Shown here: piece after piece, positions 30,166 to 56,347 of the stretch | Layout: each line of letters opens with the position of its first letter | Position numbering within the stretch: the first letter of the stretch is position 1 | DNA from: Pseudobdellovibrionaceae bacterium | Lineage (GTDB): Bacteria; Bdellovibrionota; Bdellovibrionia; Bdellovibrionales; UBA1609 | Direction: 5' to 3' | Assembly (NCBI GenBank): GCA_018663505.1 | Contig: JABJQG010000061.1 | Coordinates: 1-64,000, forward strand | DNA: 64,000 bases | Made by a program: the position numbers and the translations under genes | The notes under the pieces: model-generated | Databases searched by the model: none | Told to the model about the DNA's origin: nothing | The model's input: the letters and a program-made list of their open reading frames with translations, nothing else

Positions 30166-30253
30166 GTATACAAGAAATCCGACACCACATCACTCTGGTA
30201 TAATTTTTAGTTAGAAATGTTTAAATTGTTGTAGTTAGAAAAAGGCAAAAAAA

Positions 30254-30418
30254 AAGGCTTTTGTAGGAGCATAAACTGTAAACCCAAGTTTATCAAAGTG
30301 GGTAACCATAATAACGACTTCAGGCTTCTCAAACAAGTAGAGCATGCTCACCATCGTCAGGGACGGTCCCCGGTATTGTGCTTGTAGGGTTTACTATATT
30401 TATGGCTACAAAAACCTT
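30254..30418 (+). ncRNA. Candidate structured RNA of about 165 nt
   Basis: The ends form a long interrupted helix: AAGG with CCTT, TTTTGTAG (30259-30266) with CTACAAAA (30406-30413), ATAAA with TTTAT, and GTAAACCC (30278-30285) with GGGTTTAC (30387-30394). Inside are smaller hairpins (ACCCA/TGGGT, ATCGTC/GACGGT). A TATAAT box at 30199-30204 could start the transcript. Size and a long closing stem recall 6S RNA, but I do not find decisive conserved bases. A miniature transposable element with terminal inverted repeats is an alternative. Confidence 0.4.
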
Positions 30419-30694
30419 ATACATATAATATATCAGAGCTTGTGCCCCCTTACAATAGGGCAAAACATCTAGTTTGATAAATATGTGAAATTATTTAATT
30501 AATAATTTTTTTATTCAGAATAATGCCATAGCTGGTATTTGTTAAATTCCATTAATTTTTTTTAAATTCTAAACGAATATCAATATCTTAGGAATTCTAT
30601 CCACAAAAATATAGGATTTTTAGCTGCTATAATTTGTGAAAAAATACTGCCTTTGTCCTGTAATATTTTGAGGCGGAGTTCCGATAAGTTTATT

Positions 30695-54038: not shown

Positions 54039-55721
54039 TCAACGTAGTTCACCTTTTATATTATTCTCCCATTCCGTAAATGACCTAAACATTTGGTTTT
54101 TTGAAAGATCAAAAATTTGAGTGCCCACCCTCTCGATGAAGGCAGTGTCATGTGAAACAAAAACCACCGTACCTTCATATTCGCATAATGCTTGCTCAAG
54201 CATTTCTCTAGCCTGTACCTCCAAGTGGTTGGTTGGTTCATCGAGAACCAAAACATTGGCTCCAGACAAAATGGTCTTCGCCAGTGAGGTTTTGACTTTC
54301 TCACCTGGACTTAAATGTTCGATCTTTTGGTTGATAATGCTCGCGTCGAGTCCAAGGCTACCCAATACAGTCCTGGCAATGTGTTCTTCTACTACTTCGG
54401 GCTGCCAAACAGATTGTATAATTGTACTTTTATCTGAAAGATCAACGGTCTCTTGATAAAAGGTATTTACTGCTGCAGAGGCAGCCCACTTAATTTCACC
54501 ATGGTCCAAACTAAGTTCGCTGTGAAGAAGTTTTATCAAAGATGTCTTACCGCACCCATTTTCACCGACAATAGCTAGCCGCTGCCCCCTATCAACATAA
54601 AAGTCCAAATCTGAAAAAATCATTCTGTCGCCATAGTTAAGGCAAAGGTCTTTTGCAGATAGAACAGTCTTACTATTGCAAGGTGAAGACACGGGTAAAA
54701 TGATTTTTCTCTTTTTCTCGATCCAAGGTTTCTTAGCCTCCTCTCGCTCTATCATTAACTGAACTCTTTTCTCTACAGCTTTTGCCGTCCGCATTTTCTT
54801 TGTAGGATCTGCCGATCCAGAACCAGAGCCTTCATCTCGTTTACAAAGACCGCCATTATTTTTTACTGACCGTGTCTTTTTGAAGTTCTCCATTCGATTG
54901 GCATCAACCCTCCTGGTAGAGGCAGCCGAACTGAGTTGCTCCACTTTCTTTTGTTGCAACTCAAACTCTTCAAGGTCAGCTTGGAAATTCTGATCTTTAG
55001 TTTTTTGAAGAAAGCTATAGTTCCCTGAGAAGACTTTGAGACTACCATATTCTAGGTCCCAAATTTCGTTCACACTATCATCAAGAAGTGATCGATCGTG
55101 ACTAACAACAATCAAGGGTAACTTACTTGAGCCAAGAAATGCCTTTAGCCACTGGATTGCAGAGACGTCTAAGTTATTTGTTGGTTCGTCGAGTAAAAGA
55201 ATATCCGGCTCTGTAACCAAGATTCTTAGCAAACCAACCTTGGTCTTTTCACCACCGCTTAGTGTTTGAAGTGGACGTTCAAGAAATGAAGTATCAAGTC
55301 CAACCTCTTTCAGATTTTTCTCTATAGCAACCTCAAAGTCATATCCTCCAGCCTCTTCATATTCCGTAAATACAGTCCAATCTTGGTTGTCTGGTGTATT
55401 TTCAATAAGCGACAACCGCTTTTTTATTTTATAAAGACTGGGATTTGCATTCCACACATAGTCAGATACTGAGAGAGTATCATTATTTGATTGAACCTGT
55501 TTAAGGTAGCCTATTCTTACCTCAGGTGATGACTGTAGATGCCCTGAATTTGGGCGTAACTCTCCCAGAAGGAGTTTGAGAAGAGTTGATTTACCGCTGC
55601 CATTTTTGCCAACAATACCGATGCGTGATCGGCTGTCAATTCTAAACGAAATCCTTAAAAGTAAATCCCGAGTCTGTGATTCGTATTTGAATGTAATTTT
55701 ATTGCCTTTGACCAACAACAT
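54039..55721 (-). CDS. ABC-F ATPase, antibiotic-resistance (ribosome-protection) type
   Basis: The 560-residue protein has two ABC domains and no membrane part. The first has GKNGSGKST at 38-46, LSGGEKTKVGLLRI and LLLDEPTNNLD; the second has GENGCGKTSLIKLL, LSPGEKVKTSLAK and VLDEPTNHLE. The charged linker between them (about 240-330, with a GSGSGS patch) is the part that reaches the ribosomal centre in ABC-F proteins. Resistance members dislodge macrolide, lincosamide, streptogramin or phenicol drugs; housekeeping relatives exist, so resistance is inferred. The long leader with two small ORFs and an attenuator supports an inducible resistance gene. Base use looks less AT-rich than neighbours, hinting at transfer. 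Confidence 0.85.
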   Translation of the reverse strand: MLLVKGNKITFKYESQTRDLLLRISFRIDSRSRIGIVGKNGSGKSTLLKLLLGELRPNSGHLQSSPEVRIGYLKQVQSNNDTLSVSDYVWNANPSLYKIKKRLSLIENTPDNQDWTVFTEYEEAGGYDFEVAIEKNLKEVGLDTSFLERPLQTLSGGEKTKVGLLRILVTEPDILLLDEPTNNLDVSAIQWLKAFLGSSKLPLIVVSHDRSLLDDSVNEIWDLEYGSLKVFSGNYSFLQKTKDQNFQADLEEFELQQKKVEQLSSAASTRRVDANRMENFKKTRSVKNNGGLCKRDEGSGSGSADPTKKMRTAKAVEKRVQLMIEREEAKKPWIEKKRKIILPVSSPCNSKTVLSAKDLCLNYGDRMIFSDLDFYVDRGQRLAIVGENGCGKTSLIKLLHSELSLDHGEIKWAASAAVNTFYQETVDLSDKSTIIQSVWQPEVVEEHIARTVLGSLGLDASIINQKIEHLSPGEKVKTSLAKTILSGANVLVLDEPTNHLEVQAREMLEQALCEYEGTVVFVSHDTAFIERVGTQIFDLSKNQMFRSFTEWENNIKGELR

Positions 55722-55792
55722 ATATTCAATCTCCTTTTAAAAGTTGTTTCTGGTTTTCTAAAACCGAATAGGATTGAGATTGGATTGTTCAT
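55655..55792 (-). CDS. Second leader ORF overlapping the abc-F start
   Basis: An ATG at 55790-55792 with AAGGAG six bases upstream opens a 45-codon frame (MNNPISILFGFRKPETTF...) that runs 67 bases into the ABC-F gene in another frame. It contains a GGTTTT/AAAACC hairpin (55752-55765) upstream of the ABC-F ribosome site AAAAGGAG. Translational coupling or attenuation is likely. Confidence 0.55.
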   Translation of the reverse strand: MNNPISILFGFRKPETTFKRRLNICCWSKAIKLHSNTNHRLGIYF

Positions 55793-55828
55793 GGCATTCT
55801 CCTTGCTATTGTTTATGTGGCTAAAAAC

Positions 55829-55856
55829 TAAAAAACCCAGGACAGAGCCTAGGTTT
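55829..55856 (-). terminator. Attenuator upstream of the ABC-F gene
   Basis: On the minus strand ACCTAGG (55848-55854) pairs with CCTGGGT (55835-55841) over 7 bp with one G-T, followed by six T. Its left arm can alternatively pair with GAGTTAGGT (55888-55896), which overlaps the stop codon of the first leader ORF. Confidence 0.7.
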
Positions 55857-55889
55857 CTTTATGACAAATATGAAATTTGTTAATTGGAC

Positions 55890-55934
55890 CTAACTCTTGT
55901 TCCCCCATATGTGATTTATAGATGTAATTTTCAT
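55890..55934 (-). CDS. Leader peptide MKITSINHIWGNKS
   Basis: A 14-codon ORF has GGAGAG five bases before its ATG, upstream of the attenuator. Length, ribosome site and position match drug-sensing leader peptides of inducible resistance genes. A 6-bp hairpin (55864-55880) lies between it and the attenuator. Confidence 0.65.
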   Translation of the reverse strand: MKITSINHIWGNKS

Positions 55935-56212
55935 CGGAACTCTCCGGTTAGGTATTGATATATGTAGTATCGGGGTAAACGGTAAATTTCTCAAGTCTAT
56001 TTTTCCAAACGCTGCTTGCTTCACTTACTCAGGTCAAACTCAGGGTATTTTTAATTACCGAACCAAACTAACTCATGCTGAACCAAAAAGTCAGGGTGAG
56101 GTCAGGTAAAACCCAGGAAGAAGTCTGATGTTCCATGTGAGTTCATGTAATGTCACGTAACTGCTAAGAGTCTAACGCCGTAGAATCATTCGTTTTGAAA
56201 GTTAAAAGGGTT

Positions 56213-56255: not shown

Positions 56256-56347
56256 TGGCGGAGAAGGCGAGATTCGAACTCGCGGTACATCAGATAATGT
56301 ACGGAGGATTAGCAATCCCCTGGTTTCAGCCGCTCACCCACTTCTCC
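56256..56347 (-). tRNA. tRNA-Ser (GCT)
   Basis: The 92-base class II tRNA has acceptor GGAGAAG/CTTCTCC, an anticodon loop reading TTGCTAA (anticodon GCT), a long variable arm (GTACATTATCTGATGTAC), a T-loop GTTCGAAT and an encoded CCA. Confidence 0.97.

Follow-up and report, generated by a model that had tools for sequence, protein, structure and literature searches.

The question raised by this locus is whether the short region ahead of an ABC-F gene forms a leader that senses the ribosome and, if so, which ribosome position switches it on. The gene lies at positions 54039-55721 of the minus strand in the window, that is, the whole stretch of 64,000 nucleotides analysed here, which belongs to contig C67 of a 3.78-Mb genome (G000) assigned to the Bdellovibrionota through its relatives, which include a Bdellovibrionales MAG. 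It encodes a ribosomal-protection type ABC-F protein of 560 amino acids in which both NBDs display intact motifs. With the NCBIfam model for ribosomal-protection ABC-F proteins (NF000355) it scored 444.9 bits against a cut-off of 380, and it fell far below the cut-offs of the Msr, Vga, Sal, Lsa, CplR and OptrA models, for instance 338 against 680 for Msr and 316 against 725 for Vga. The closest solved structure is VmlR2 (PDB 8buu). Judged by its sequence, this ARE-type ABC-F is likely an antibiotic-resistance gene. A second ABC-F gene was noticed on the same contig beyond the window (G000:C67:110069-111514, plus strand), with an open frame of 603 amino acids and a score slightly below the NF000355 cut-off. 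The window also contains a 6S RNA at 30250-30421 (minus strand; Rfam RF00013, 70.7 bits), as well as a tRNA-Ser (GCT) gene at 56256-56347 (minus strand), a possible insertion site, the end of which lies about 260 nt ahead of the promoter-like site described below.

A preliminary description of this DNA had listed a 14-codon ORF, a 6-bp hairpin, a terminator, a 45-codon ORF (uORF2) and a hairpin before the gene, and all of these were found again on the minus strand, to which all the coordinates that follow refer. Three elements had been overlooked, namely a promoter-like site, a segment ahead of the first ORF and a pairing of CAAUCUC with GAGAUUG over the ABC-F ribosome site. The promoter-like site (55966-55994; TTGAGA, 17 nt, GATACT) is recognized by consensus match only, and TTGAGA-17-GATAAT occurs in the related genomes G283 and G323. 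Segment 1, ACCUAACC (55946-55953), the 5' arm of a putative anti-antiterminator, lies directly 5' of the ribosome site of uORF1, which consists of 14 codons and a stop (MKITSINHIWGNKS; 55890-55934) and has the Shine-Dalgarno (SD) sequence GGAGAG (55945-55940) 5 nt ahead of its ATG. Segment 2, AGAGUUAGGU (55888-55897), holds the uORF1 stop UAG and can pair either with segment 1, via GUUAGGU, or with segment 3. On the 3' side of the stop, the 6-bp hairpin ACAAAU/AUUUGU (55864-55880) is a possible pause hairpin; it is also predicted in G014, is replaced by a different 5-bp hairpin in the two leaders of G126 (G126a and G126b), and is not found in the MFE structure of G283. The intrinsic terminator (55830-55859) comprises 12 pairs including an A-U flank, seven of them in the core, followed by TTTTTT, and its left arm and loop make up segment 3, ACCUAGGCUCU (55844-55854). 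No Rfam leader family matched the window leader at the gathering score.

The clade of this gene was searched for in up to 369 genomes of the phylum and was present in few of them. Identity to the window protein was 64-65% in G283, 53% in G323 (partly masked), 43% and 42% in the two copies of G126, 37% in G316, 34% in G345, which has one in-frame stop, and 59% over the remaining part in G014, and the N-terminus is missing in G260. The comparison of leaders among relatives that the preliminary description had proposed reveals a recurring layout at the clade ABC-F loci, as uORF1 and the terminator were found in G283, G323, G014, G126a, G126b and G345, making seven leaders with the window. The layout of the window is repeated ahead of the clade gene in G283, G323, G126 (both copies) and G345, four further genomes of the Bdellovibrionota; G316 harbors uORF2 and has no terminator, and the 5' region of G260 is unreadable. 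About 35 other, paralogous ABC-F genes of the order underwent the same scan and had no such terminator within 350 nt, and viral contigs gave distant ABC-F proteins only (32% identity or less), mostly without a terminator. A covariance model of the leader recovered the four loci of family f1 and G126b from RNA alone, and over the 369 genomes the model (R1) found ABC-F loci only, plus one weak match just 3' of rpsI in G158, which resembles an ordinary terminator and was rejected as the same leader. The gene neighbors vary among the genomes and include a tRNA-Ser and an SIS gene, a LysR gene, a methyltransferase and an SDR gene; the leader and the gene therefore seem to move together, resistance and its regulation apparently being carried as a single unit.

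Some clade members are damaged or altered. In G014 (L026, G014:C76) a conservation of about 80% extends over the leader as far as the terminator, with a weak antiterminator and a strong anti-antiterminator pairing, and the N-terminal half of the ABC-F gene is lost together with uORF2; judging from what is retained, this locus is a regulatory remnant before a decaying gene. The in-frame TAA of G345 (L063) and the missing N-terminus of G260 (L064) were noticed as well, and the damaged members together suggest either frequent loss of the ABC-F gene or MAG errors. The two ABC-F paralogs of G126, L017 (G126:C138, 346-1962) and L016 (G126:C65), each have their own leader, and L017 lacks the linker motif MENFKxTRSxKKNGGICKRDEGSGS that the other members keep, so that the function of this copy, or the drugs it acts on, may differ.

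Three mutually exclusive helices were recognized in the leader: the anti-antiterminator (segments 1:2), the antiterminator (2:3) and the terminator (3:4). The unconstrained MFE structure of the window leader consists of segment 1:2, with a duplex energy of -14.9 kcal/mol, the small hairpin and the terminator, and the anti-antiterminator is also part of the MFE structures of G283 and G014. The ACCTAAC of segment 1 is retained in all four leaders of family f1. The earlier suggestion that the left arm of the terminator can pair with the region of the uORF1 stop was confirmed, the summed 2:3 duplex energy of the seven leaders going beyond all of 1000 shuffles (z -4.5), though the leaders are related and do not amount to seven independent tests. 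For segment 1:2 the sum over the same related leaders gave z -3.2, and this pairing was individually not significant in G323, G126a, G126b and G345; single leaders often stay below significance for pairing, and in family f17 segment 1 is poorly defined and the transcription start uncertain. Between the paralogous leaders of G126, U/A/U is changed to C/G/C in segments 2/3/4, which keeps a standard pair in both the antiterminator and the terminator; this change destroys the uORF1 stop codon, yet both exclusive helices are kept, and we consider the three-way covariation the best single piece of evidence for a switch. The leader of G345, unrelated in sequence, exhibits a perfect 10-bp pairing of segments 2 and 3 (GGATCAATGT:ACATTGATCC). 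Column covariation within the four f1 leaders was no better than in shuffles, and these counts are uninformative because the pairs hardly vary.

With only the helices 2:3 and 3:4 at hand, the preliminary description had no means of deciding how the switch is oriented, and it called the direction unclear. A direction is now predicted from folding in which a ribosome footprint was imposed codon by codon on the seven leaders. In a transcript ending at the terminator loop, the antiterminator was available when the P site was on early codons and was lost from about codon 12 onward (codon 13 in G126a), both in seven of seven leaders, and segment 1:2 was best removed by a ribosome on codon 1. The footprints also bear out the earlier remark that a ribosome at the uORF1 stop blocks the antiterminator, a position that would represent the OFF state, and the ON state would be a stall near the uORF1 start, which covers segment 1. 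Once the transcript was complete, the antiterminator took over in G283 (codons 1-2) and in G126b (codons 3-5), G323 and G126a formed mostly the terminator, and G345 favored the antiterminator unless the ribosome was beyond about codon 8. Equilibrium folding of the finished window leader favored the terminator with a ribosome on codons 2-8 and gave a mixture at codon 1 only, and read-through in the window would therefore need an antiterminator that has formed first and persists. We predict that a ribosome arrested early sets the switch to ON and one that completes uORF1 sets it to OFF, aided by the order in which the RNA is made. The predicted uORF1, led by an SD in all seven leaders, has 14 codons in five of them and 15 and 17 in the other two, and its frame and length are kept while its residues vary without restraint (nonsynonymous codons 8-10, synonymous 1-2), a pattern more in keeping with ribosomes arrested at the start than with a specific arrest peptide.

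Taken together, ribosome-mediated attenuation probably controls this ARE-type ABC-F gene, with an anti-antiterminator, an antiterminator and a terminator switching on uORF1 and a translational gate acting on uORF2. What the sequences show are the elements, their conservation and complementarity, the covariation and the geometry. We infer from the gene class that the leader senses drugs, and the translation of the uORFs, the stalling by drugs, the drugs concerned and the repression by uORF2 are put forward in the same conditional way. An undisturbed ribosome would complete uORF1 and stop on the UAG within segment 2; with segment 2 covered or re-paired with segment 1, segment 3 would be free, so that the terminator would form and transcription would end. 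A drug directed at the PTC would hold the ribosome at or near the uORF1 start, where it would cover segment 1 and let segments 2 and 3 pair, and this pairing would prevent the terminator and allow RNA polymerase to read through. On the read-through mRNA, ribosomes translating uORF2 would cross the ABC-F ribosome site and start out of frame and would terminate some 67 nt into the gene, traffic that should hinder ABC-F initiation. A ribosome held early in uORF2 would put an end to it and would also, in G283 and the window, open the helix over the ABC-F SD. The same drug event may thus be read twice, uORF1 permitting transcription and uORF2 translation occluding the gene unless its ribosomes are arrested by the drug, a double reading to which we give somewhat less than even probability.

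The second step depends on uORF2 (45 codons; 55655-55792), which is preceded by the SD AAGGAG (55804-55799) and runs in the -1 frame over the start of the ABC-F gene (ATG at 55721), the overlap being 67 nt. An out-of-frame overlap of this kind was found in all six testable members, with 41-49 codons and 56-85 nt of overlap. The spacing from SD to ATG recurs in every one of the six, and the frame relation is the same in five, G316 using the other frame; in G323 the uORF2 start is present and the overlap with the gene is masked. Among the controls, an SD-led overlapping uORF was detected in none of 43 other window genes and in one of 73 other ABC-F genes, and the Fisher values are to be read as descriptive, as the criterion was framed after the clade had been seen and the members are related. 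The two control layers of the preliminary description probably hold in a changed form: the out-of-frame overlap of uORF2 is conserved, but the small GGTTTTAGAAAACC hairpin inside the uORF2 region (55752-55765) is not kept beyond G283 and was discarded as a conserved switch. A programmed -1 frameshift by which uORF2 would lead into the gene was also discarded, as its frame fits five of the six members and not G316, and no conserved slippery site was noticed by eye.

In the MFE structure of the window, the CAAUCUC of the early uORF2 codons (55776-55782) pairs with the GAGAUUG at 55733-55727 and so covers the ABC-F ribosome site, that is, the SD AAGGAG and its 3' flank AUUG (55727-55736). G283 retains a different 7-bp pairing over the SD (UCUCAAC:GUUGAGA). 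With a ribosome imposed early in uORF2, the unpaired fraction of the ABC-F SD rose from 0.20 to about 0.4 in the window and from 0.07 to about 0.6 in G283. Such sequestration was confined to these two, the effect of the ribosome being absent or weak in G126, G345 and G316. The conserved gate would then consist of ribosomes moving along uORF2 over the start of the gene, with the SD helix as an addition in one branch, and this is the least certain step of the proposal. A rival explanation accepts the attenuation on uORF1 and regards uORF2 as incidental, or as coupled to the gene in that its ribosomes open the ribosome site, rather than as a drug-released gate. It is consistent with the limited sequestration and with the lack of conservation in the uORF2 residues (nine nonsynonymous and no synonymous codon changes between the window and G283), and weak structure around the gene start could be melted by elongating ribosomes. 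Nevertheless, the spacing, length and out-of-frame overlap are shared by all six members and almost never seen in the controls, and uORF2 ends 56-85 nt within the gene, too deep for coupling of the usual stop-restart kind, which leaves this rival with a real but clearly minority probability.

The proposed attenuator with its gate can be compared with leaders already characterized. In the vmlR leader of Bacillus subtilis (PMC9226507), as proposed here, the anti-antiterminator overlaps the uORF, a hairpin lies between anti-antiterminator and terminator, a start-stalled ribosome leads to the antiterminator, and a second layer acts on ABC-F translation. The likeness concerns the switch logic, with no leader sequence similarity claimed; the vmlR uORF has three codons (MIN) against 14 here, and its second layer is a hairpin that sequesters the SD, no second uORF having been described, unlike the long out-of-frame uORF2. 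The cplR leader of Clostridioides difficile (PMC10201436) likewise combines transcriptional and translational attenuation on an ARE-ABC-F gene with a short uORF lacking a strong arrest motif, but there the terminator hairpin itself sequesters the gene SD and there is one uORF (MRI). For are5sc and tiaA of Streptomyces, LSAP start-codon stalling is reported to switch terminator to antiterminator, with several uORFs predicted; where uORFs of are5sc overlap, they do so with one another, only one being translated, and none is reported to overlap the gene, unlike here (PMC12421871). The lmrC leader is reported to have a uORF-dependent terminator (PMC8546547), and ermB two leader ORFs ahead of a ribosome-resistance gene, as here, the gene being a methyltransferase under translational attenuation, unlike here (PMC8274638). 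In the literature searched, we found no ARE-ABC-F gene whose translation is gated by a conserved uORF that overlaps it out of frame.

These systems also bear on the signal. On uORFs of this type, LSAP drugs are reported to stall ribosomes at the start codon (PMC12421871; also PMC10201436), and near-start arrest with little sequence dependence is reported there for lincosamides, pleuromutilins and streptogramin A (PMC9226507, PMC10201436, PMC12421871). An attenuator for amino acids or general translation stress, induced by any slow translation of uORF1 such as in starvation or ribosome shortage and with drugs not as the main signal, would suit a uORF1 without a conserved arrest peptide, on which any early delay should work, and the bmrB leader, which has three alternative stem-loops, answers various ribosome-targeted antibiotics (PMC4191407). 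However, uORF1 has no run of one codon type, and the controlled gene is a ribosomal-protection ABC-F, a class whose characterized leaders respond to drugs, making this explanation unlikely. We hold it very unlikely that the leader works like that of msrD, which also places a uORF and a terminator before an ARE-ABC-F gene and in which arrest of MsrDL at the stop codon blocks the terminator directly (PMC10314930). Here the uORF1 stop lies within a pairing segment, but a ribosome at that stop removes the antiterminator strand and its front edge is 19-46 nt short of the terminator in seven of seven leaders, a geometry that excludes a direct block. That the region is an ordinary 5' region, with the terminator of an upstream transcript and chance small ORFs, is extremely improbable: single-sequence folding of the window leader is weakly unusual (z -1.8) and a single terminator-like site in 800 nt is about what shuffling would yield, but the layout is conserved across different neighborhoods and absent before paralogs, G126 displays three-way covariation and the divergent G345 a 10-bp antiterminator. 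The leader stands above chance mainly through conservation.

The preliminary description had regarded such leaders as little described in this group of organisms, and this agrees with our search, in which none was found and no report joined Bdellovibrio with an ABC-F leader, subscription journals being mostly outside its coverage. The switch logic is already known from vmlR and cplR, and the two-uORF arrangement is the unusual feature. If the proposal is right, the finding would place ribosome-sensing ABC-F attenuation in the Bdellovibrionota, Gram-negative bacteria of the predatory type, beyond the Gram-positive and actinobacterial lineages of the characterized leaders, and two small ORFs would make up a simple AND gate. 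The direction of the switch is a sharp prediction that is open to test.
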